Below are positions 1,785 through 54,874 of a stretch of 64,000 nt of DNA, in pieces; within the stretch, counting starts at the first letter, position 1, and each line of letters begins with the position of its first letter. This DNA comes from Pirellulales bacterium. Its GTDB lineage: Bacteria > Planctomycetota > Planctomycetia > Pirellulales > JAEUIK01. The DNA lies in NCBI GenBank assembly GCA_019694435.1, contig JAIBBZ010000005.1, positions 124,001 through 188,000 on the forward strand, in the 5' to 3' direction. The position numbers were made by a program, and so were the translations under genes. Under the pieces are notes generated by a model. That model was not told the origin of the DNA. It saw only the letters and a list, made by a program, of their open reading frames with translations, and did no database searches.

Positions 1785-2939
1785 CTAGAGCCGTTCGATG
1801 ATCGTGCACGTGGCCTGACCGTGGCCGATGCACATGGTCTGCAGGCCGATGCGCCCGCCCGTGGCTTCGAGCCCGGCCAGCATCTTCGACATCAGGCCGG
1901 CTCCGGTGCCGCCCAGCGGATGGCCGTGAGCGATCGCGCCGCCCCAGGGATTGACCTTGGCCATATCGGGCTTGAGCTCGCGGGCCCAACCGAGCACGAC
2001 CGTGGCAAACGCTTCGTTGATCTCGATCCAGTCGATGTCCTTGATCGTCAAACCGGCGCGCTTCAGCGCCTTTTGCGTGGCGGGAATCACGCCGGCCAAT
2101 TGCAGGGTCGGATCGTCGCCCACGGCCACGCGTGCCAGGAACCTTGCACGCGGCTTGAGGCCTTCGCTCCGCGAGACTTCGTCGCTGGCGATCAACACGG
2201 CCGCGGCCCCGTCGGAAATCTGGCTGCTGTTCGCGGCCGTCACGACACCGTTGCCGTCCGGGCGAAACACCGTGGCCAGCGAAGCCATCTTGGCCCGATC
2301 AACCACGTCGCGCACGCCCTCGTCGCGGGTCACGTCGATCTTTTTGCCTTCCTTGTCGACCCCTGTGGTCGGCAACAGCTCTTTGTTGCGATTCTCCTTG
2401 GCGGCGCGGCTGGCGCGGGCATGGCTCTCGATCGAGAAATCGTCGACGTCCTGCCGGGTGATGTTCCATTTCTCGGCCATCCGCTCGGCGCTTTCGCCTT
2501 GATGCACCAATTCGAATTGCTTGAACAGGGCCGGGTTCAAGTTGCCCAGGTCGCCCACGTCGCTGAACATGGGGGCCCGCGTCATGCTCTCGATGCCGCA
2601 GCCGATGGCGAAATCGGAGTCGCCGGCGGCCACTTCCTGCGCGGCGAAATGGATCGCCTGCTGGCTCGAGCCGCACATGCGGTTCAGGCTCACGGCCGGC
2701 ACGTGCACGGGAAAGCCCGCCAGCAACACGCCCAGGCGGCCGATGTTGGCCCCCTGCTGACCGGCCTGGGTGACGCAACCGGTGACAACGTCGTCGATCT
2801 TGGCTGGATCGACCTTGGCGCGCTCGAGCAGCCCCTTGAGCGTGTGGGCCAGTAAGGCGTCAGGATGGGTTTCGCGATAGGCGCCATCGCGGCGGCCAAA
2901 CGGCGTGCGGACGGCCTCGACGATCACAGGTTGCGGCAT
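1785..2939 (-). CDS. thiolase (acetyl-CoA acyltransferase)
   Basis: A 384-aa protein of normal thiolase length. The nucleophilic cysteine is Cys89 in [12 protein letters not shown], the NEAF motif is at 308-311, the catalytic His338 sits in [11 protein letters not shown], and the second active-site cysteine is Cys370 in TMCIGHGQ. Thiolases cleave 3-ketoacyl-CoA with CoA to acetyl-CoA plus a shortened acyl-CoA, or run the reverse condensation. The ATG is preceded by a GAGGAGT ribosome-binding site. Position between an acyl-CoA ligase and a hydroxyacyl-CoA dehydrogenase argues for the degradative, last step of beta-oxidation. Whether it prefers straight-chain or branched-chain substrates cannot be read from the sequence. 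Confidence 0.9.
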
Positions 2940-3008
2940 GGCTCGATACTCCTCGCGCGGCGTCGGGCCGCGGATCGAAAGAACGTGTCGGGTAGATGCG
3001 TGGGACGG

Positions 3009-4643
3009 TCAGGTCGAACCGCGGCCCTCAGTATAATGGTCGCGAAACTGCTCGCGTAGCGCCGACTTGAGGAACTTCCCCGCCGAGGTGCGGGGAATCG
3101 CCGTGACAAACTCGACGCAATCGGGCAGCCACCATTTGGCGAATTGTGGTCGCAGAAACTCGATCAATTCCTCGCTCGTGGCCCGGCCTTCCGGCTTCAA
3201 GACTACCACGGCCAGCGGGCGCTCCTGCCATTTGGGGTGGGCGACGGGAATCACGGCTGCCTCGGCCACGGCCGGGTGCCCCATCAGCGCGTTTTCCAAT
3301 GCCACCGAGCTGATCCACTCGCCGCCCGACTTGATCACATCCTTGGCCCGGTCTTGCAGTTGGATGCAGCCGTCGGGCTCAATGGCCACGATGTCGCCGG
3401 TGCGAAACCAGCCGTCTTCGGTAAACGACGCCGCCCCGCTGGGACAGTCGTAATAGCTGGCGGCCACCCAGGGCCCGCGGACTTCGAGCTCGCCCATCGA
3501 TTGCCCGTCCCAGGGGACTTCGCCGTTCTCGTTGCGGCCGCGGACTTCGACAAACGCCACCGGACCGCCCTGCTTGGCGCGGTAGGCAAATTGCGCGTCC
3601 TCGCCCGCGTTGCGCAGCCGGCTCGGGACGTTCGAAATGGTGCCCATCGGGCTCAGCTCGGTCATACCCCAGGCGTGCAGCACGTGCAGCCCATGCCGGC
3701 GTTGAAAGCCTTCGATCATCGAACGCGGCGCGGCCGAGCCGCCGACGATCATGGCCCGTAGCGACGACAGGTCGAAACGTTTCGGGTCTTTGTCGAGGAT
3801 CTGCAACATGCCGAGCCAGATCGTCGGCACGCCGGCCGTGAGCGTCACGCGTTCGCGAGCCAACAAGTCGAGCAGGCTGGGCGGGTCGAGGTGCGGCCCG
3901 GGAAACACCTGCGTCGCGCCGACCAGCGCGCAACTGAAGGGCAGCCCCCACGCGTTGGCATGAAACATCGGCACCACGGGCAAGCAGACGTCGGCCTCGC
4001 ACACGCCGTGCGCGTCGACCATCGTGGTCACCAACGAGTGCAAGGTGATGGCGCGGTGCGAGTAGAGCACGCCCTTGGGCCGGCCCGTGGTCCCCGAGGT
4101 GTAGCACATCGCGGCGGCCTGCTGTTCGTCGAGTTCGGGCCACTCGAAGCGTCGTCCTTCGACCGACGCGAGCAGGTCCTCGTAATCGAGCATCCCGGGC
4201 GGCGGGCGGTGCCCCGGCTCGCAGACGACGATCACGTGCTCGAACCCGGCCGCCGCGCGGAACTGGTCGAGCAGCGGCAACAGCGACTCGTCGACAATCA
4301 CGGCGCGGTCGCCGGCGTGCTTGGCGATGTATCCCAGGTCGTTGGGGTGCAAGCGGAGATTGAGCGTGTGCAGCACGGCACCGGCGCAGGGAATGCCGAA
4401 GTACGCCTCGAGATGCTGGTAGTGGTTCCAGCAGAGCGTGCCGACGCGATCTCCGGAGCCGATGCCCAGGTTGGCCAGCGCCAGCGACAATCGCTGCATG
4501 CGGTCCAGCATGTCGCCGTAGGTGTAGCGATGGATCGACTTGTCCGTGCGCTGCGTGACGATGGGCTTGTCGCGAAACCGCTGCTGGCAGCGGCGCAGCA
4601 TAGCGGGCAGCGTCAGCTGAAAGTCCATCATCAGTCCGTGCAT
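3009..4643 (-). CDS. AMP-dependent acyl-CoA synthetase/ligase
   Basis: A 544-aa ANL-superfamily adenylating enzyme. It carries the phosphate-binding motif YTSGTTGRPKGVLYSH, the WGMTE adenine-side motif, GWFRTGDIVAIEPDG, the hinge region DRAKDVIKSGGEWIS and the C-terminal catalytic lysine in PRTSAGKFLK. It activates a carboxylic acid to acyl-AMP and then acyl-CoA; the overall length and the DRAKDVIKSGGEWIS form suggest a medium/long-chain fatty acid ligase (FadD3/AlkK-like). The start is supported by GGGAGA about 9 bases upstream; a second ATG pair lies 4-5 codons in. The frame stays open far upstream antisense-like through the acyl-CoA dehydrogenase gene, but that part encodes no recognisable protein. 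It lies 44 bp behind the dehydrogenase gene, so co-transcription is likely. Confidence 0.9.
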   Translation of the reverse strand: MHGLMMDFQLTLPAMLRRCQQRFRDKPIVTQRTDKSIHRYTYGDMLDRMQRLSLALANLGIGSGDRVGTLCWNHYQHLEAYFGIPCAGAVLHTLNLRLHPNDLGYIAKHAGDRAVIVDESLLPLLDQFRAAAGFEHVIVVCEPGHRPPPGMLDYEDLLASVEGRRFEWPELDEQQAAAMCYTSGTTGRPKGVLYSHRAITLHSLVTTMVDAHGVCEADVCLPVVPMFHANAWGLPFSCALVGATQVFPGPHLDPPSLLDLLARERVTLTAGVPTIWLGMLQILDKDPKRFDLSSLRAMIVGGSAAPRSMIEGFQRRHGLHVLHAWGMTELSPMGTISNVPSRLRNAGEDAQFAYRAKQGGPVAFVEVRGRNENGEVPWDGQSMGELEVRGPWVAASYYDCPSGAASFTEDGWFRTGDIVAIEPDGCIQLQDRAKDVIKSGGEWISSVALENALMGHPAVAEAAVIPVAHPKWQERPLAVVVLKPEGRATSEELIEFLRPQFAKWWLPDCVEFVTAIPRTSAGKFLKSALREQFRDHYTEGRGST

Positions 4644-4687
4644 GTGCGGAGATCTCCCAGAGGGTCGCGCGGGGCCGGCGCAGGCGG

Positions 4688-5824
4688 TTACTTGCGGCTC
4701 AGTTCGCGGGCAATGATGTTGCGCTGAATTTCGCTCGTGCCTTCGTAGATTTGCAGCACCTTGGCGTCGCGATAGAGCTTCTCGACGGGAAACTCGGTGC
4801 TGTAGCCCATGCCGCCGAAGACCTGGACAGCTTCGCTCGCGGCCCAGGTGGCCGAGTCGGCGGCAAAAGCCTTGGCATAGGCGGCTTGCATCGTGTTCCG
4901 CTGGCCCGAGTCGATCAGCCAAGAGGCTTCGAGCGTCAGCAGCCGCGCCGCTTCGAGCCGGATCGCCATGTCGGCCAGCTTGTGGCCGATCGCCTGATGC
5001 GCGATGAGCGGCTGTCCCATCGAGGTGCGCTCCTTGGCATAGGCCAGCGCTTCGTCCAGGCAGCGCTGGATCAGGCCCACCGCCGAGGCGGCGATCATCG
5101 GTCGCGAACGATCGAAGACCCGCATGGCGATTTGGAACCCGGCACCTTCTTCGCCCAGCAGCCGCGCGGGCTCCAGTTCGACGTCGACGAAATTCAACTC
5201 CGCGGCGGGTGAGGCGCGCTGGCCGAGTTTTTCCAGCTTGCGGCCGACCGTCACGCCCGGCTGATCCAGGTCGACGACGAAGGCCGAGATGCCGTGATGT
5301 CGTTGCGTCGGATCGGTCTTGGCAAACACGATGGCAAAGCTCGACACCGTGGCATTGCTGATCCAGATCTTCGTACCGTTGAGCAAATAGCGGTCGCCGC
5401 GGCGCAGCGCGGTCGACTGGATGCCGGCGACGTCCGATCCGGCGGCCGGTTCGGTCGCGGCGTAGCAACCGAATTGACCGCTGGTGAGCCGGCCGAGGTA
5501 TTCGCGCTTTTGCGCTTCGGTCCCGGCCACGGCCAGCGCATCGGCCGAGACGGCGTTCAGTCCCAGCGCACCGCCGATGCCCGTGCAGCCCCAGGCCAAC
5601 TGTTCGGTGACGACGGCCAGGTCGAGCACGCCCAATCCCGCGCCGCCGTAGGCCGGCGCAACCGTCAGGTTCACCAGCCCCAGCTCTCGGGCCCGCGCGT
5701 ACAGCTCGTGCGGAAAGCTCTGTTCGCGGTCGTGCTTGGCCGCAACGGGGACAATTTCCTTGGCCGCAAAATTATGGGCCAGGTCGCGGATCAACCGCTG
5801 TTCTTGCGAAAGTTGAAAGTCCAT
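4688..5824 (-). CDS. acyl-CoA dehydrogenase
   Basis: A 378-aa FAD-dependent acyl-CoA dehydrogenase. Visible signatures are [11 protein letters not shown] (residues 121-131), GTKIWISNA (150-158), [10 protein letters not shown] and the C-terminal [22 protein letters not shown], with the catalytic base at Glu361 in [11 protein letters not shown], as in short/medium-chain enzymes. It introduces the alpha-beta double bond in acyl-CoA and passes electrons to ETF. The start MDFQLS was chosen because AGGA lies 8 bases upstream; a start six codons earlier is possible. It is the first gene of the minus-strand acyl-CoA group. Substrate length or branching is not determined. Confidence 0.9.
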
Positions 5825-46118: not shown

Positions 46119-46994
46119 TCAAGGTGCACGGCCCGAGTCGCGCCATTCCTTCCGCGCGCCTTCGATGCGCAGCGGGCCGGCAACTTCTTGACCGTCGCGC
46201 AGCACCATGTAAGCGTCGGCCCCTGCCACGCTGTCCCAGGCCAAGGTCGCCAGTCCCCGGCTTGCCACCGCCGGCGAAGCCGCGGACCGCAGACCTTGGG
46301 CGCCGACGGCGATTAATGCATAACGATGCGGGTCGGTCCCGTCGGTGCGGACGATCTGCGGAGCGGCCGGCACGGGAAGTGGCATTTCCTGCACGCGGCC
46401 GCCCCAGAGCTCGAGCACCTCGTCGGCCGAGGGCAGCCCTCCGCCGCCGTATCCGCCGCCGCCGAGCGACATCATGCCCTGCCCGATCAAGGCATCGGTC
46501 AGTGGCTCGCTGTGTCCGGGTCGAAAAGTCTGCACGCGAAATCGACCGGGATGCGTGGCGCCGTTCCATTGCTCGCGCGGGACTTCGGACAGCTCGACGC
46601 CTTCGCCCTGAATGATGGTCGTTTGTCGCCACGCGTCGTCGAGCCAGACGTTCCACGAGATGTGACCCGGCGCGCGGCGCAGCGAGCCGTCGCGCTCCAG
46701 GGCGTGAAACCGGTCGTCGAACGGATCGTCGATTTCGCCCTTGATCAGCCGGCTGCGCACCCAGAGCCCGCCGGGGCCGTCGTGGAGCGCCCGGGCATAC
46801 AGGCCGCGTGGAATCTGTTGGCGCTCGTAGCCCGACTCCCAGGGCTGCTCGGTGTCGGAAACGATCAGCTCGTGTCGCACGACCAGCCGATCGACCACGA
46901 GTTCCCGGGGCGCCACCGCATCGCCGGGCGCCAGCTTCAGCAGGCCATAGGTCGCCATCACGGAAAGCGCAACGGTAAGTAGGCGGTCGGACAT
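46119..46994 (-). CDS. exported protein of unknown function, 291 aa
   Basis: The N-terminus is a signal peptide-like hydrophobic segment (MSDRLLTVALSVMATYGLLKLAPGDAVAPRE). The middle contains VVDRLVVRHELIVSDTEQPWESGYERQQIPRGLYARALHDGPGGLWVRSRLIKGE. There is a glycine-rich GGGGYGGGGLPS, and a C-terminal beta-rich part (LATLAWDSVAGADAYMVLRDGQEV) that resembles a fibronectin type III repeat. AGGGAGAG precedes the ATG. I do not recognise the family. It stands between the oxidoreductase group and the M56 gene, both on the same strand but with separate gaps, so neither association is firm. Confidence 0.55.
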   Translation of the reverse strand: MSDRLLTVALSVMATYGLLKLAPGDAVAPRELVVDRLVVRHELIVSDTEQPWESGYERQQIPRGLYARALHDGPGGLWVRSRLIKGEIDDPFDDRFHALERDGSLRRAPGHISWNVWLDDAWRQTTIIQGEGVELSEVPREQWNGATHPGRFRVQTFRPGHSEPLTDALIGQGMMSLGGGGYGGGGLPSADEVLELWGGRVQEMPLPVPAAPQIVRTDGTDPHRYALIAVGAQGLRSAASPAVASRGLATLAWDSVAGADAYMVLRDGQEVAGPLRIEGARKEWRDSGRAP

Positions 46995-47123
46995 GGCAAT
47001 ACTCTCCCTGGTTAGCTGCGACAGAACGCAGACTACCATGGGAGGCTAGCCGGACTGAACTCGATCAGGTAGACCGTGGCCAAAATAGGGAGGCACCGCT
47101 TGAACTTTTCTAGGAAGCGTTCT

Positions 47124-49394
47124 TCAGAATTGGCCAGAACCTGTTTTTCGCTGTTCCAGCGGGCGAAGGAGGATCCGGTCGCCATGATGCACGCGAGGGT
47201 TTTGCTCACCGCTGGAATCGCGAATGATCGCGTTGAGTGTAAGAACGATTTGATTGGCGACCCCAACCGGCGCTCGGCCGATGTACTCGACAACCGCGCC
47301 CTCCGACAATAACGCGCTAATTCCTGCGTCCTGGTCCGTCAACATATCCAGCACCGTCTCGCCACCGTGTAGCGGACGACGTTTCACAGTGCCCGGTTGA
47401 TCCATGACCCCGACGAAACAATAGTGCTGACCCATGTCGTCGAGGATCACTTCGACTCGAGCGTCGAACCCTTGCTCCTCGCACCGAATGGCAATCGCCT
47501 GTTCGACCTGGGCGAGCGTTTTGCCAATGACTGCAAAACTGCCGAATCGTGGGATTTTCAGCGTGCCGTCGGGTGCTACCCTCCACGTCGGCTCCCTCGG
47601 CTGCTTGTCGTCCTGAATTGACCTGGGCGCCGAATCGACAAGCGCGTTGAGCGTAAAGGCAGCGGGAGCGTAATACATTTGCAGCTCGGAATCGCCCAAC
47701 ATCGACTTGAAGTGACTTGCGGCCGCGTCCCGGGCGGCGGCAAGGTTTTTGCCTTTCACGTCGACAGCGCCATAGCTGGCATTGAAGTGCAGGCTATGGT
47801 CAAAGGCGACGACATACGGGCCTTCGACCGGCTCACTGGCCAGCGTGTTACTGACCGAAACATGCACCACATCGCCGGGCTGGAGCATTCGCTCGTCGCG
47901 GGGCGTTAGCCTGACGTCGATTCGCAATCGGTCACCCGGCCCGAGGCGGAAAGCGTCACGCTCGACGATGGCCGCATTGATCTCGTCATTGGATCGTGGT
48001 TGCCGCTCCTCGTCAGTCGCGACTTCGCTCACGGGAGGTGCCACGGCGATTACGGGCGCGGGTCGATTGGCGCCGCCGGTGGAAGGAGGCGCGGTTTCTT
48101 CTGCGTTGATCCGAAGCGTCGACAGTGCCAGGCAGAGTAGCAGTGCCGAGGCGAGGACGAACCAGTGCATCACGGGGCGCATGGCTTGGGGGCAGTTTTC
48201 TGGAGGTAAAGCGAGCAAATCCATGATTCTCCTCCTCGTTGAAGGGTGACGATGGGCCATGGCAGTTCCTGGCGAGCGCGCGTTTCCCGTGGCCGCGAGC
48301 CACATCGTGAGCTGCTCGGCCAGGTCCACAGGATGGATCCCGCCACGCACGGCACGGTGATCGGCAGCTTGTTCCGCGGCGACAAGAAATGCGCGCCGCA
48401 CAACGTACAACAGCGGTTGCCACGGCAGGACGAGCAACGCGAGCTGAAAGCTTGCCTGGGCCAGATTATCCCGGCGCTGGGCATGCGCCAGTTCGTGACA
48501 GGCGACCTGGTACCAGTCTGCATTCCTGGGCGCCTGAGTGGGAATTAGGACAACTGGCCGACGGATGCCCGACAACGTCGGCACCTTAATGTCGGATGAG
48601 TGGCGCACCTGGAATCGACCGGCGAATCTCAGGGCCGCTGCCGCACGGTTAAACTCAGCCGTGATCTTCGCCGGTACATCGTACAACGAGCGTCGTCGAA
48701 GCCGGGCCAGGGTTTGGACGTCGTGCGCGATCCTTGCAAATCGCCAACCAACCAGTAATACCCAGCCCATTGCTGTGACGAGCCAAGGATTGGGCAGAAG
48801 TCTCGAGTCATGCTCGGCCAGCGATTCGAGCTGCGCGGCCGACGTGAATTCAGGCAGCAAGGCCGTGTCATCGAGGCTGCTCGCCGCTGGAACATGCCTG
48901 GGGACCCTTGCAGGCTCCGCATTCAGCGCCGCTGTATCGGCGGTTGCCTGGTCCGCGAACGGTTCGCTGTCAGGTAATTCGCCTTGCGGTACGAACAATG
49001 ACCGCAGTGTTGGGTGTGTTGCCGCAACTGGCGCCGGCTTGGCCCCGGCAGTTGATGCGCCGGGCATCGACCTGCTGTATGCAACGCTTCCCGTAGCCGC
49101 CTCCGGTACTGGCAGCGCAGTTGACCACGCGTGCGGCAGCGACCAGGTGATTTCATGCCTGGTCGAGCGGAGGGCAGTCGTCAACAGCGGCGTCACCACC
49201 GCCAGGCACACCGTCGCCAGGCAGACCTCCGCCCTCCAAGCCCCCGACTGCTTGCGGCACAGCCGCTCGACCGCCAAGCCAATCAGGCAAACGACGGTCG
49301 ATTGCCAAAGGCAGTTCCAGGCAAACAGTTGCCAGGCGTCGCGCTCGACCAGCGACATCAAACTGGCCAGGATATCCGCCCCGAGTTCAGCCAT
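47124..49394 (-). CDS. M56-type peptidase (BlaR1-like) fused to polysaccharide-export-like domains
   Basis: A 756-aa protein. N-terminal hydrophobic segments (about 33-50, 60-78, 205-220) frame an M56 domain with the zinc motif HELAH (His300, Glu301, His304) followed by downstream acidic AEQAADHRAV (Glu341). A further transmembrane segment lies at 410-428 (WFVLASALLLCLALSTLRIN). From about residue 480 come two beta-rich units: FRLGPGDRLRIDVRLTPRDERMLQPGDVVHVSVSN and WRVAPDGTLKIPRFGSFAVIGKTLAQVEQAIAIRCEEQ, with VGVMDQPGTVKRRPLHGGETVLDMLTDQ (SLBB-like), as in Wza-type export proteins. BlaR1 relatives cleave BlaI in response to a signal sensed outside. It overlaps blaI by 8 bp. Confidence 0.75.
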   Translation of the reverse strand: MAELGADILASLMSLVERDAWQLFAWNCLWQSTVVCLIGLAVERLCRKQSGAWRAEVCLATVCLAVVTPLLTTALRSTRHEITWSLPHAWSTALPVPEAATGSVAYSRSMPGASTAGAKPAPVAATHPTLRSLFVPQGELPDSEPFADQATADTAALNAEPARVPRHVPAASSLDDTALLPEFTSAAQLESLAEHDSRLLPNPWLVTAMGWVLLVGWRFARIAHDVQTLARLRRRSLYDVPAKITAEFNRAAAALRFAGRFQVRHSSDIKVPTLSGIRRPVVLIPTQAPRNADWYQVACHELAHAQRRDNLAQASFQLALLVLPWQPLLYVVRRAFLVAAEQAADHRAVRGGIHPVDLAEQLTMWLAATGNARSPGTAMAHRHPSTRRRIMDLLALPPENCPQAMRPVMHWFVLASALLLCLALSTLRINAEETAPPSTGGANRPAPVIAVAPPVSEVATDEERQPRSNDEINAAIVERDAFRLGPGDRLRIDVRLTPRDERMLQPGDVVHVSVSNTLASEPVEGPYVVAFDHSLHFNASYGAVDVKGKNLAAARDAAASHFKSMLGDSELQMYYAPAAFTLNALVDSAPRSIQDDKQPREPTWRVAPDGTLKIPRFGSFAVIGKTLAQVEQAIAIRCEEQGFDARVEVILDDMGQHYCFVGVMDQPGTVKRRPLHGGETVLDMLTDQDAGISALLSEGAVVEYIGRAPVGVANQIVLTLNAIIRDSSGEQNPRVHHGDRILLRPLEQRKTGSGQF

Positions 49395-49785
49395 GGCGCA
49401 GCTCCCGGCGACGTTGTTCGATCAGTTGCCGCAGCTCGCGCAATTCCTCGTCGGACGCAGGATGGAGTTCCAATAGCTGCGAAACGAGCTCTCGGGCATC
49501 GCCGGCGAAATGCTTGTGCAGCAGTTCGCCGAGACTGCTGGTGCGGTTTTGTTTGCGGCTAACGCGCGCCGAGTATTGATAGGCGCGACCCCGCGCGCGG
49601 TGTTGTACCCAGCCCTTTTTTTCGAGCTTCTGCAGGGCAACCAGAACGGTCGTATAAGTCACTTCGTGGCCGGCGGCACCGAGGCGTTCGTGCAGTTCGG
49701 CCACGGTCGCCGGCCCTCGATCCCAGAGGAATTCAATGAGCTGTCGTTGCAGCGGACCCAGCGACTTGACGTCGAAATGTGCCAT
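49387..49785 (-). CDS. BlaI/MecI/CopY-family transcriptional repressor
   Basis: A 132-aa winged-helix regulator: LGPLQRQLIEFLWDRGPATVAELHERLG, then TYTTVLVALQKLEKKGWVQHRARGRAYQYSARVSR, and a C-terminal dimerisation helix region with EELRELRQLIEQRRRELRHG. This is the BlaI family, which represses by binding TACA-N2-TGTA-type sites as a dimer and is inactivated when the cognate BlaR1-like M56 peptidase is activated. The gene overlaps the M56 gene by 8 bp, so the two are a typical pair made together. A candidate operator lies upstream at 49829-49850. No beta-lactamase is in the window, so the regulated process is unknown. Confidence 0.88.
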   Translation of the reverse strand: MAHFDVKSLGPLQRQLIEFLWDRGPATVAELHERLGAAGHEVTYTTVLVALQKLEKKGWVQHRARGRAYQYSARVSRKQNRTSSLGELLHKHFAGDARELVSQLLELHPASDEELRELRQLIEQRRRELRHG

Positions 49786-49828
49786 GTTGTTCCGTGAAAG
49801 GCAGCCATTCCCGGGGGAGTGATCTGTC

Positions 49829-49850
49829 TACGTCTGTACGACGTACGTCG
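49829..49850 (-). promoter_or_regulatory. candidate BlaI operator upstream of the blaI/M56 pair
   Basis: TACGTCTGTA at 49829-49838 differs by one base from the TACA-N2-TGTA core bound by BlaI/MecI, and it abuts the perfect 12-bp palindrome CGACGTACGTCG (49839-49850). The site is about 44-65 bp upstream of the blaI start, a proper place for autoregulation. The plus-strand Nramp-like gene starts ~224 bp beyond it and could also be regulated. This is inference from sequence likeness. Confidence 0.45.
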
Positions 49851-50073
49851 GTGAATCGTAGCCAGAGAGTGGGCGAAGTCAAGCAAATTCGCAGGCAGGC
49901 ACGATCAGCCTTCGCGGCTCGTTTGCCGAACACGAAGACTGGATTCCCCAGCTTGGGTTGCGCCCGGTGTCGTGTTAGAACGGGACGCCGACGGCAGCCG
50001 GCTGGAGGAGCAAGTTGCCGTCGGGGAGTTGCTTTGCTCGATGGCCGCGAGTCCCAGGGGGCCGCTTCTCGGC

Positions 50074-51552
50074 ATGGAAAACCAAGCGCCGTACGAACCG
50101 TACGCCCTGTCGAACGAAACGATTCAGGAGCCGCCGCGCAGCCTGCCGGCGGCCCTGCGCAAAATCGGGCCCGGCATCATTTTGGCCGGCAGCATCGTCG
50201 GCTCGGGCGAATTGCTGCTGACCACCGCGCTTGGCGCGCAATACGGCTTCGTGTTTCTGTGGCTGATCTTGTTCAGTTGCGTGATCAAGGTCTTCGTCCA
50301 GATCGAGCTCGGGCGCTACGCCATTTCTTCCGGCAAGCCGACCCTCGCCGGGCTCGATGATTTGCCGGGACCGCGCCTGGGGACGCATTGGCTCGTCTGG
50401 TGGTGGTTCATCATGTTGTTGATCACCGTCGTGCAACTGGGCGCCATGGCCGGTGGCGTGGGCCAGGCCGTGCACCTGGCCTTTCCCCAGGGTTCGCCGT
50501 GGCTGGCCGAACGGTTGAAAGGCATCTGGCCGGGCATCAGCCAGGCGATCGCCGAAAAGCCCGAGCACCCGTGGGCCGTGCTGGCCGCGATGGCCGCGAT
50601 CTTGCTGTTGCTCAGCGGCGGGTACCGGCGCATCGAGCGCATCACCACGCTGCTCGTGGCCGCCGTAACGCTGATCACCGTGGCTTGCGTGTGCATGCTG
50701 CCGGCGACGGGTTACCCGCTACGGCTGGGCGACCTGCGCGAGGGTTTTTCACTCGATGCGTTGTTCTTGTCGAGTACCGCGATCGCGGCGGCGTTTGGCG
50801 CGTTTGGCATCACCGGCGTCGGGGCTTCGGAGCTGTACGCCTATCCGTATTGGTGCCTGGAAAAGGGCTATGCGCGATTCACGGGCCCCTGCAGTCCCGA
50901 TCCGCGATGGGTCGATCGTGCCAAGGGCTGGTTGCGGGTGATGTATCTCGATGCTTGGGTCAGCATGGTGGTGTTCACCACGGCTACCGTCGCGTTCTAC
51001 CTGCTGGGGGCGACCGTGCTGCACCGCCAAGGGTTGCATCCGGAAAAGGGGCAGATGATCGCCACACTGGCCGAGATGTACGTCCCGGCCTTTGGCGAGT
51101 GGACGAAGATCTTCTTCCTCATCGGGGTCTGGGCCGTGCTGTTCAAGACGCTGTACGTGGCTTCGGCGGCCAACAGCCGATTGACGGCCGACTTCTTGGG
51201 CCTGGTCAAGGCGGTCCGGTATCGCAGCGACGCGCAGCGCCACTGGTGGACCGGCGTGTTCTGCGTGATCTACCCCGCCGTGGGGCTGCTGCTCTATCTG
51301 TATTACCGCGATCCGAAGCTGATGGTGATCATCGGCGGTTTTGTGCAGGCCGCGACGCTGCCGATCATCGCCGGCGCGGCGCTCTACCTGCGCTACCGCC
51401 GCACCGATCCGCGGCTGGCGCCTTCGCGCTGGTCCGATTTCTGGCTGTGGTTCGCCTTCGTGACGATCACGATCGTTGCGGTGTTCGCGATCGACGCCGC
51501 GACCGGCGGCAACTTGATGCAGATCCTCACCGGCGGTAAGGCGAGCGCTTAG
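50074..51552 (+). CDS. Nramp-related membrane transporter lacking the metal-binding motifs
   Basis: A 492-aa polytopic membrane protein with about 10-11 hydrophobic segments. The first segment reads GPGIILAGSIVGSGELLLTTALGAQYGF (residues 32-59), which aligns with Nramp TM1, but the metal-binding DPGN is replaced by VGSGE. The Nramp TM6 Met/Ala-Pro-His motif is replaced by GASELYAYPYW. The family resemblance therefore stands, but typical Mn/Fe binding does not; an Nramp-related protein with a different substrate is more likely. Two earlier in-frame starts exist (49972 and 50041). It is followed, after a 438-bp gap, by a two-component system. Confidence 0.7.
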   Translation: MENQAPYEPYALSNETIQEPPRSLPAALRKIGPGIILAGSIVGSGELLLTTALGAQYGFVFLWLILFSCVIKVFVQIELGRYAISSGKPTLAGLDDLPGPRLGTHWLVWWWFIMLLITVVQLGAMAGGVGQAVHLAFPQGSPWLAERLKGIWPGISQAIAEKPEHPWAVLAAMAAILLLLSGGYRRIERITTLLVAAVTLITVACVCMLPATGYPLRLGDLREGFSLDALFLSSTAIAAAFGAFGITGVGASELYAYPYWCLEKGYARFTGPCSPDPRWVDRAKGWLRVMYLDAWVSMVVFTTATVAFYLLGATVLHRQGLHPEKGQMIATLAEMYVPAFGEWTKIFFLIGVWAVLFKTLYVASAANSRLTADFLGLVKAVRYRSDAQRHWWTGVFCVIYPAVGLLLYLYYRDPKLMVIIGGFVQAATLPIIAGAALYLRYRRTDPRLAPSRWSDFWLWFAFVTITIVAVFAIDAATGGNLMQILTGGKASA

Positions 51553-51990: not shown

Positions 51991-53457
51991 ATGATGACCG
52001 ACGAACACCCGTCATTTGCGCACGCCGATCGGGCACCCCGCACGCACCGCCTGCGGTGGCCGTTACAGGCGCAGTTGCTGGGGCCGTCGATTGCGCTGGT
52101 CCTGCTGACGACCTGCCTGGCCACGGGATTGACGGCCGCATGGACCGTGCGCCGAGTGCGCCAAGAGCAGGCGCAGCGGTTGGAGCAAACCGCCGCAACG
52201 CTGGCCGAGGCCACGTTTCCCCTGACGGCGCGGGTGCTGGAGCAATCGCGCGCGCTGTCCGGCGCCGAGTTCGTGATTCTCGACGCGGACCACGCGATCG
52301 CACAGTCCACGCTCGAGTTGCCGGCGGCCGATGCGCGCGTCGTAGCGGCGCGGCTGGCCGACCAAGGCCCAGGGCCGTTCGCTGATTCTTTCGAACTGGA
52401 TTGCGCGCGCGGCAGATACCTGGCCCGCGCGGCGCGGCTCGCCAGGCAGCCCACCGGCGACGCGACCATCCTGGTCGTGCTCCAGCCGCGCGACGAATTG
52501 ACCGCGCAAATCCGCCAGTCGGTATTGCCGGCGATTCTCGCGGGCGGGCTGGCGGCGATCATTTCGTCGGCGATCGCCAGTTGGCTGGCACGCCGCTTCA
52601 CATTGCCGATCCGCGAGTTGGTTCGCCAGACGGCGGCGATCTCGGTGGGGCGATTCGCCCCCCTGCCCACGCCGGATCGCAACGACGAGTTCCGAGATCT
52701 GGCCGAATCGATCAACGCCATGGCGCGGCGCTTGGCCTCGTACGAGCGCGAGGTGCGCCAACACGAGCGGCTGCGCTCGATGGGCGAATTGGCCGGGGCG
52801 ATGGCGCACCAGTTGCGCAACACGGCCGCCGGCACGCGAATCGCCGTCGAACTGCACCAACGGCGGTGCCTGACGGCCGAGAGCGACGAATCGCTGGCCG
52901 TGGTTTTGCGTCAACTCCGCTTGATGGAATCGTTCCTGCGGCAGTTTCTGGCAGTGGACAATCACGAACCAATCGAGTTGCGGAGCGTCGATTTCGGCGA
53001 GATCGTGGCCGACGCCGTCGAGCTCGTGGCGCCGCTGTTTGCCCACGCCGACGTGCGTCTCGATACCAGCCAGATCGAGCCTGCCAGGCTGCTCGGCGAT
53101 CGCGAATCGCTGCACCAGTTGGCAACGAACCTGCTGCTCAACGCGCTCGAGGCGGCGCGCGTGGAATCGGCCACGGCGGCCGAGGTCCGCGTCGAGCTCG
53201 CCGCAAGCGGTGAAGAGACCGGCAACTTGATTGTCGAGGACACCGGCGCGGGCGTGCCAGCAGCCATCGCGCCACGATTGTTTCAATCATTCGTCACGAC
53301 TAAGCGCAACGGCGTGGGGCTGGGCCTGTATTGCGCCCAGCAGGCGGCGCAGCGGCACGGCGGCAGTTTGCGGTACGAGCGCGTGGCGGGACGCACGCGG
53401 TTTGTTTTCGAGTTTCCCCGGGTGAGTCAGGAACATGGCGCACGTCTTTCTTGTTGA
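51991..53457 (+). CDS. sensor histidine kinase (NtrB-like)
   Basis: A 488-aa membrane kinase. Transmembrane segments lie at about 32-53 and 178-199, with an extracytoplasmic sensor domain between them and a HAMP domain after the second (RRFTLPIRELVRQTAAISVGRFAPL). The H-box is ELAGAMAHQLRNTAAGTRIAVELHQ with His273, and the ATPase motifs are present: NLLLNALEAARVE (N-box), VEDTGAGVPAAIAPRLFQSF (G1) and GVGLGLYCAQQAAQRHGGSL (G2). It autophosphorylates on His and passes the phosphate to the regulator encoded immediately downstream, whose gene overlaps this one by 23 bp. The sensed signal is unknown. Confidence 0.93.
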   Translation: MMTDEHPSFAHADRAPRTHRLRWPLQAQLLGPSIALVLLTTCLATGLTAAWTVRRVRQEQAQRLEQTAATLAEATFPLTARVLEQSRALSGAEFVILDADHAIAQSTLELPAADARVVAARLADQGPGPFADSFELDCARGRYLARAARLARQPTGDATILVVLQPRDELTAQIRQSVLPAILAGGLAAIISSAIASWLARRFTLPIRELVRQTAAISVGRFAPLPTPDRNDEFRDLAESINAMARRLASYEREVRQHERLRSMGELAGAMAHQLRNTAAGTRIAVELHQRRCLTAESDESLAVVLRQLRLMESFLRQFLAVDNHEPIELRSVDFGEIVADAVELVAPLFAHADVRLDTSQIEPARLLGDRESLHQLATNLLLNALEAARVESATAAEVRVELAASGEETGNLIVEDTGAGVPAAIAPRLFQSFVTTKRNGVGLGLYCAQQAAQRHGGSLRYERVAGRTRFVFEFPRVSQEHGARLSC

Positions 53458-54874
53458 CGACGAGCAGGCGGTTTGTTGGGGTCTTGCGCAGTTGGTGCGC
53501 GAGCTGGGCCATACGGCTTCGACGGCGTCGTCGGCCGAGCAGGCGTTCGACCGGCTCGACACGATTGCGCCCGACGTCATCGTGCTCGACGTCCGGCTGC
53601 CGGGCATCGACGGCATCTCGGCCATCGATCGATTTCGGCAGCGGCTCGGGCAGGTGCCGATCATCGTCATCACGGCGTTTGGCGAATTGGCCGTGGCCGT
53701 GGCCGCCGTGCGCAAGGGCGCCTTCGACTACCTCGTCAAGCCGTTCGACCTGAAGGTCGCGCAACGTGCCATCGAACGGGCCATTGCCTCGCCATCCGCA
53801 GCAGTCGACCAGCGCACTCCGCCGGGACCAGTCACGAGCGAGACCGACGACGAAATCATCGGCTCGTCGCCCGGCATGCAAGAGGTGTTCAAGCAAGTCG
53901 CCATGGTCGCCGCGACCGACGCTTGCGTGCACGTGCAAGGCGAGAGCGGCTCGGGCAAGGAGCTCATTGCCAGGGCCATTCACCGCTTCAGCCGCAGGCA
54001 CGCCGGACCTTTTGTGCCGGTCAATCTGGCGGCACTCAGCCCCAGCCTGGCCGAGAGCGAGCTGTTCGGCCACGTGAAGGGTTCGTTCACCGGCGCCGAA
54101 GTCCAACGCAAAGGGCTGCTCGAGCAGGCCCATGGCGGTACCGTCTTTTTCGACGAGGTGGCCGACATTCCGCTGAACGTGCAGGTCAAGCTGTTGCGCG
54201 TGCTGGAGCGCGGCGAGATCTGGCCGGTGGGCGCCGAGCGGCCCCTTCTGTGCGACTTCCGCGTGGTCACGGCGACGCATCAACAGCTCGGCGCCATGGT
54301 CGCCGAGGGCCAGTTTCGGCACGATCTCTATTTTCGCCTGCGGGCGTTCGAAATCTTGTTGCCGCCGTTGCGCGAGCGCGCCGGCGACATTCGCGATCTG
54401 GCCCAACACTTTCTGCAGCGTCTGGCCGCGAAGAACCGCAGCGCATGTCCTGCGCTGGCACCGGAGACCGTCGAGGAACTCGAGCGACGCCCCTGGTGGG
54501 GCAACGCGCGGGAGCTGCGCAACGCGCTCGAACATGCCATGATCCTGGCACGCGGCGGATCGATCTTGCCCGAGCATCTGCCGCCGCCGGCGTCGTCCCC
54601 GCAGTCGCCGAACGCAGCAGCCGAATTGTCGCTCGAGCAAGTCATCGACCGCTGGACCCGGCAACAACTCGCGATCGAGCCCGACGCTTGCGATCTTCAC
54701 GAACGACTGTTGCAGACGGTCGAACCGCCGTTGCTCCGGGCGGTCCTGCAGCGGCACGGTGGACAATACCTCGCGGCGTCGCGGCAGCTCGGGCTGCATC
54801 GGGTCACGTTGCGGCGCAAACTTGGCCCGGCCGATGCCGCCGCGCCCCCGGCACCAGCGAGCGAGAGTGAATAG
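53435..54874 (+). CDS. sigma-54-dependent response regulator (NtrC-like)
   Basis: A 479-aa protein. The receiver domain has VDDE (8-11) and the phosphorylated Asp52 in IVLDVRLPG. The AAA+ domain has Walker A GESGSGKE (169-176), the sigma-54 loop GSFTGA (216-221, variant of GAFTGA) and Walker B GGTVFFDE (234-241). The C-terminus has a Fis-type helix-turn-helix (RAVLQRHGGQYLAASRQLGLHRVTLRRKL). It activates sigma-54 promoters when phosphorylated, and its kinase partner is the overlapping upstream gene. CAGGAAC precedes the ATG. Which promoters it binds is not evident; no convincing -24/-12 site was found in the window. It converges on the giant gene, with its stop ~18 bp away. Confidence 0.93.
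   Translation: MAHVFLVDDEQAVCWGLAQLVRELGHTASTASSAEQAFDRLDTIAPDVIVLDVRLPGIDGISAIDRFRQRLGQVPIIVITAFGELAVAVAAVRKGAFDYLVKPFDLKVAQRAIERAIASPSAAVDQRTPPGPVTSETDDEIIGSSPGMQEVFKQVAMVAATDACVHVQGESGSGKELIARAIHRFSRRHAGPFVPVNLAALSPSLAESELFGHVKGSFTGAEVQRKGLLEQAHGGTVFFDEVADIPLNVQVKLLRVLERGEIWPVGAERPLLCDFRVVTATHQQLGAMVAEGQFRHDLYFRLRAFEILLPPLRERAGDIRDLAQHFLQRLAAKNRSACPALAPETVEELERRPWWGNARELRNALEHAMILARGGSILPEHLPPPASSPQSPNAAAELSLEQVIDRWTRQQLAIEPDACDLHERLLQTVEPPLLRAVLQRHGGQYLAASRQLGLHRVTLRRKLGPADAAAPPAPASESE

Follow-up and report, generated by a model that had tools for sequence, protein, structure and literature searches.

Switches that pair a BlaI repressor with an M56 peptidase are known mainly through beta-lactam resistance. 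The roles of the zinc-site residues have been described for S. aureus BlaR1, in which they form the motifs H201ExxH and E242xxxD (PMC9834060), and the topology of BlaR1 (PMC9834060) is used here to assign sidedness to the protein under study. OPX proteins of class 3 consist of Poly_export and SLBB domains and lack Wza_C or GfcC (PMC9603273). Neither 'peptidase' nor 'planctomyc' occurs in the main text of PMC9603273, and we found no description of an M56-OPX fusion in the open-access literature. At the locus presented here, the core of the BlaI/M56 switch is coupled to a secretion component, and this is so in more than one lineage.

The locus lies in a 64-kb window (the whole stretch of Pirellulales DNA that was analysed, 64,000 nucleotides) and comprises two genes:

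47124-49394, minus strand: M56-OPX fusion of 756 aa (unbroken frame; Pfam; same fusion in at least 16 further genomes)
49387-49785, minus strand: blaI-type repressor of 132 aa, winged helix, Penicillinase_R (PF03965)

The fusion gene is a single frame without internal stop or frame change, and an 8-nt overlap (common letters ATGGCTGA) joins its start to the blaI stop. PF03965 matches the repressor with E 2.5e-28 (99.2 bits against a Pfam cut-off of 22.6), which together with the overlap bears out the original prediction of a paired BlaI repressor. Its type is that of the BlaI genes found in the same M56 clade. We read the pair as a BlaR1-type antirepressor module with a swapped sensor, a periplasmic OPX module, and give this reading a probability of roughly 0.6. 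Directly downstream on the same strand is a 291-aa frame with no Pfam match (46122-46994), which may be cotranscribed with the fusion. A divergent Nramp-type transporter gene (50074-51549, plus strand; PF01566, E 4.7e-16) shares the intergenic region that holds the operator, and positions 51991-54871 (plus strand) encode a HAMP-domain histidine kinase and then a sigma-54 response regulator.

The protease half contains the following elements:

48342-48785, minus strand: M56 peptidase match, residues 204-351, taking in helix 3 (PF05569; residues 228-346 align to BlaR1 8exs)
48483-48497, minus strand: zinc motif HELAH, residues 300-304, aligned to BlaR1 H201-H205
48360-48374, minus strand: third zinc ligand and its partner, E341-x3-D345, aligned to BlaR1 E242/D246
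49146-49337, minus strand: transmembrane helices 1 and 2, residues 20-45 and 51-83 (hydropathy and AlphaFold2 helices)
48693-48794, minus strand: transmembrane helix 3, residues 201-234 (AlphaFold2 helix)
48096-48179, minus strand: transmembrane helix 4, residues 406-433 (hydropathy and AlphaFold2)

PF05569 is detected with E 7.5e-12 (45.5 bits against a Pfam cut-off of 31). In an eight-row alignment, the H, E, L and final H of HELAH are invariant, with A or G as the fourth residue, and E341 and D345 are invariant as well; the zinc-site residues of the fusion protein are intact. The AlphaFold2 model was generated from a 26-sequence alignment and has a pTM of 0.45, with pLDDT values of 75-91 over most M56 blocks, and its four helices fit the transmembrane helices of BlaR1. 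By analogy with that protein, the chain after helix 4, including the OPX module, would be periplasmic. An M56/HELAH domain followed by a transmembrane segment had been predicted, as had the lack of a penicillin sensor, and both hold: Pfam finds no penicillin-binding domain in the fusion protein up to E 1, and NCBIfam BlaR1 scores 27.8 bits against a cut-off of 400.

In place of that sensor the chain carries three C-terminal parts:

47634-47954, minus strand: first OPX unit (PES1), residues about 481-587 (second PF02563 stretch, alignment with relatives, pLDDT)
47430-47597, minus strand: second OPX unit (PES2), residues about 600-655 (best PF02563 stretch, 602-649)
47160-47429, minus strand: SLBB-like tail, residues about 656-745 (Wza alignment of the family profile; EpsE model to residue 742)

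Poly_export (PF02563) matches the fusion at residues 602-649 and in a second stretch, with E 3.9e-13 and 49.8 bits against a cut-off of 28, and the C-terminal 327 aa searched alone yield E 1.5e-14 over three stretches. The export character of the two predicted units therefore stands. Their SLBB membership by Pfam does not, as PF10531 has no significant match in the window protein, whether the whole chain or the C-terminal 327 aa is searched. The SLBB label for the tail is only indirectly supported: the alignment between the Wza structure and the fused-family profile continues through what follows the second Poly_export unit (about residues 98-235 of Wza), and NCBIfam EpsE matches residues 605-742 with E 5e-7, but far under its cut-off. 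In the model, pLDDT is 82-97 over residues 481-570 of PES1, 81-92 for the second unit and only 55-68 for the tail. A profile of six fused proteins matches the solved structures of BlaR1 (8exs, E 1.6e-11) and of Wza-type export proteins (E about 1e-12 to 1e-13 for 2j58 and others). The chain begins with M56 and transmembrane helices, and the OPX module has no lipoprotein signal ahead of it.

Upstream of blaI, two control elements are recognized:

49829-49860, no strand assigned: operator of two overlapping 17-bp dyads TACG-N9-CGTA, 49829-49845 and 49844-49860 (shuffles, genome search, conservation)
49855-49882, minus strand: sigma-70-like promoter TTGACT-16-TACGAT, the sole promoter-like match in 46800-50200

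A candidate operator had been placed at 49829-49850; it extends to a pair of dyads that overlap by two bases and are conserved upstream of the BlaI genes of relatives. Single TACG-N9-CGTA sites are expected 0.21 times in the 64-kb window according to dinucleotide shuffles, and three are found, two of them at the operator. This exact double site is unique in the 6.13-Mb assembly, and the double arrangement also precedes BlaI at three related loci (L034, L035 and L037), with a variant form at two more (L154 and L204). The -10 hexamer of the promoter (TACGAT) is the first half-site of the operator; shuffles average 0.7 promoter-like matches where the 46800-50200 region has its one, and the hexamer spacing is kept in L034 and L035. 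A second fused clade has another BlaI type, with dyads of 16 bp (e.g. TACGACAnTTGTCGTA). A wider regulon was considered and set aside: the genome has four further single TACGTCG-N6-CGTA sites, all seemingly within coding frames, and the overall number of sites is close to that of the control. At no other promoter of the genome was a second operator detected. The few other sites, their apparent position in coding frames and a count near that of the control lead us to regard the operator as best read as autoregulatory. The BlaI type or operator of the window's clade also accompanies two M56 proteins with other ends, one helical and possibly CpxP-like (L038 8636-10426 in G015; by eye, Pfam none) and one WD-repeat-like (L204 3977-7015; by eye).

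From these parts we infer BlaI binding and cleavage, the direction of the signal, the ligand and the target genes as follows. BlaI bound to the tandem TACG-N9-CGTA dyads would cover the -10 element of its own promoter and repress the blaI-M56 operon, possibly also the divergent Nramp gene. The M56 protein would sit in the inner membrane with its zinc site toward the cytoplasm and its OPX module in the periplasm, after the last transmembrane helix. An altered interaction of the OPX module with the export machinery or its polymer would switch the protease on, and the active protease would cut BlaI and bring about derepression. A protease that "reads envelope polysaccharide or surface status", as originally predicted, is a plausible reading; of that prediction, the architecture, BlaI pairing, missing penicillin sensor and operator stand, and the SLBB domain does not by Pfam.

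The domains stand in the same order in at least 17 of the 296 Pirellulales genomes sampled; these belong to eight families (fused-profile search followed by Pfam) and include the closed chromosome of Lacipirellula limnantheis I41 (Pirellulales). Together with the unbroken frame, this recurrence rules out an assembly join or a gene boundary between the two halves. On genome contigs, a query with the single protein matched nothing and a query with the alignment did match. At the strict limit of E 1e-95, no fusion is found outside Pirellulales among 392 genomes drawn from the phylum. A BlaI gene adjoins the fusion in 14 of the 17 genomes, as scored by a simple pattern, and the other neighbors of the fused genes are not obviously polysaccharide genes when judged by eye from sequence. 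The fused sensors vary at their ends. Three from family f6 (L105, L106 and L107, in G122, G118 and G098, respectively) have an extra C-terminal tail, that of L106 giving a weak Secretin match under the cut-off (E 9e-4), and L109 ends in a PDZ-like domain. Two others lack the first OPX unit (L219 in G011, 2505-4688; L218 in G149, 1962-4766), so that PES1 is absent altogether from these fused relatives. Further M56 proteins of the order end in CarboxypepD_reg, redoxin, WD40, PDZ-S41, PSCyt2 or SBP_bac_10. Given this range of C-terminal domains, M56 in Pirellulales appears to be a platform whose C-termini can be exchanged.

In a tree of 42 M56 domains, the fused proteins fall into three separate groups: A, which includes the window protein, B with nine members and C with two. 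The window row forms a long branch in this tree. Placing all fused proteins in one clade is rejected (p-AU 1.8e-5), as is a grouping of A with B alone (p 0.004), and with the former goes the simple vertical descent of one fusion. The sensor swap thus appears to have arisen more than once, with gains inseparable from losses or domain replacement in the counts and trees. In the OPX tree, families f19 and f14 have fused domains that cluster with the standalone OPX lipoproteins from the respective genus (support 100/99).

Members of the standalone family open with what by eye is a lipoprotein-like start, followed by two Poly_export units, an SLBB-like part and a C-terminal tail. Neither that start nor that tail is present in the fused modules. 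Several copies or fragments of standalone genes lie at contig ends, e.g. L118 (G048:C273) and L153 (G057:C123), which hints at assemblies breaking in repeated or multi-copy genes. Between standalone proteins of different families, PES1 is 44% identical and the rest 61% (192 pairs), so PES1 changes faster. Five fused proteins reverse this relation when compared with the standalone protein of their own genome, with PES1/rest identities of 90/52% in G048, 92/68% in G034, 79/57% in G157, 81/64% in G118 and 70/53% in G035. Together, these genomes span all three fused clades; most genomes in the comparison look like metagenome assemblies, with G157, a closed Lacipirellula genome, as the exception. 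With a 15-point cut and unit boundaries that were picked after the data had been seen, a PES1 excess of at least 15 points occurs in 0 of 317 cross-family pairs of fused and standalone proteins, 0 of 231 standalone pairs and 3 of 35 same-family pairs from other genomes. When genomes are permuted, the first unit reaches p about 5e-5, with relatedness only partly controlled. Of the 13 genomes that allow a comparison of both parts, 8 have no such PES1 excess, and G054 and G004 show the opposite pattern to the five genomes above.

The match suggests that in several relatives the sensor mimics the resident exporter. If the sensor is a copy of the resident OPX lipoprotein, monitoring of the export machinery or a partner shared with that lipoprotein is suggested for these relatives, and the input to the OPX sensor would most likely be binding of the same partner, or assembly with it. 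Stated in full, the M56 protease would bear, anchored in the inner membrane, a copy of the OPX lipoprotein that the cell itself makes. Repeated exchange or coevolution would keep the two alike, and the switch would report on the export machine while passing for one of its components; we put this forward tentatively, with the odds somewhat against it.

Direct binding of secreted polysaccharide offers another account, in which the module reports the level of the polymer without contacting the resident OPX protein, and PES1 is alike within a genome through binding of the same species-specific polymer. Poly_export/SLBB domains do belong to polymer export, and a unit that varies between lineages as PES1 does (44% against 61% for the rest) is expected if polymers are species specific. 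Polymer binding by PES1 is putative, however, and protein-protein contacts explain the pattern equally, which leaves this account rather unlikely.

The likeness of PES1 within genomes might also be neutral gene conversion between duplicates, with no functional meaning. In G034, PES1 is more alike than the remainder at fourfold sites (0.74 vs 0.49, p 0.012), which points to gene conversion in that genome. The Lacipirellula pair is in keeping with it: in the closed genome G157, PES1 of the sensor resembles the genome's own lipoprotein, whereas the sister genome G149, with a standalone protein 95% identical, carries a related sensor in which the first unit is missing. Against conversion as the general explanation, PES1 in G048, G118, G157 and G035 is no more alike at fourfold sites than the remainder (0.36-0.53) although its amino acids are 70-90% identical, and selection would be needed to hold such a match after any exchange; this argument is weakened by the difference in codon usage between the two genes (GC3 of 0.70-0.81 vs 0.82-0.85). 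On balance, we consider conversion alone unlikely.

Wza-type proteins are octameric, and OPX proteins form rings. The OPX module could therefore serve for oligomerization or tethering alone, with the protease controlled in some other way, e.g. by membrane stress acting through the transmembrane part. The many unrelated C-terminal domains on M56 proteins of the order fit such a loosely constrained C-terminus. A pure tether need not follow the fast-evolving unit of the resident OPX protein, however, and the same type of domain is found in three separate M56 clades, making this explanation improbable.

The window's own copy differs from those of its relatives. No member of the standalone family was found in its genome, which is 97.9% complete; the G048 lipoprotein as query retrieves the fused gene only (E 1.4e-17), and the genome's sole other Poly_export protein (G000:C5, 80 kb) is only weakly similar to the window module (31% over 65 residues). 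A missed copy is possible because standalone genes are often at contig ends in these assemblies. The OPX region of the window protein does not exceed 31% identity to any other, whichever of the two parts is compared; it has the longest branch in the OPX tree and has lost the conserved YNSK motif, and no relative with a gene close enough for dN/dS turned up. The input to this protein may differ, or the protein may be decaying. That it is a decaying or repurposed relic would account for the missing partner, the long branch and the lost motif, but frame, zinc site, BlaI coupling and operator are all intact and PES1 is folded with confidence in the AlphaFold2 model, and we give the idea little credence. 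As the window's genome has no detected standalone partner and its module has diverged, mimicry of the exporter is drawn from the relatives; at the window locus, only the general BlaR1-like reading is supported.

This locus represents a genuine variant of the BlaI/BlaR1 switch, one that recurs and has an OPX module as its sensor. In some genomes, that sensor tracks the fast-changing part of the resident exporter, which offers a concrete, testable way in which bacteria could keep watch on the export of their own polysaccharide. The domain pair and a closed isolate genome, that of Lacipirellula limnantheis, are thereby named as a test case.

Compared with BlaR1/MecR1 and BlaI/MecI, the window locus shares an M56 gluzincin with HExxH and ExxxD motifs and four predicted transmembrane helices, an adjacent BlaI-type repressor and, by sequence and conservation, a dyad operator at the promoter. 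Unlike those systems, the fusion has no penicillin-binding sensor and ends in an OPX module instead, and its operator is a tandem TACG-N9-CGTA. Like class 3 OPX proteins, it has Poly_export units followed by an SLBB-like region, with no match to Wza_C or GfcC in Pfam; unlike them, the module is part of an inner-membrane protease and not a secreted or lipoprotein export component. The planctomycete standalone OPX proteins differ from it in having a lipoprotein-like start and a C-terminal tail. Finally, the window protein resembles other Pirellulales M56 proteins in joining the M56 domain to a long C-terminal extension, although theirs are CarboxypepD_reg, redoxin, WD40, PDZ-S41, PSCyt2 or SBP_bac_10 in place of the OPX module.
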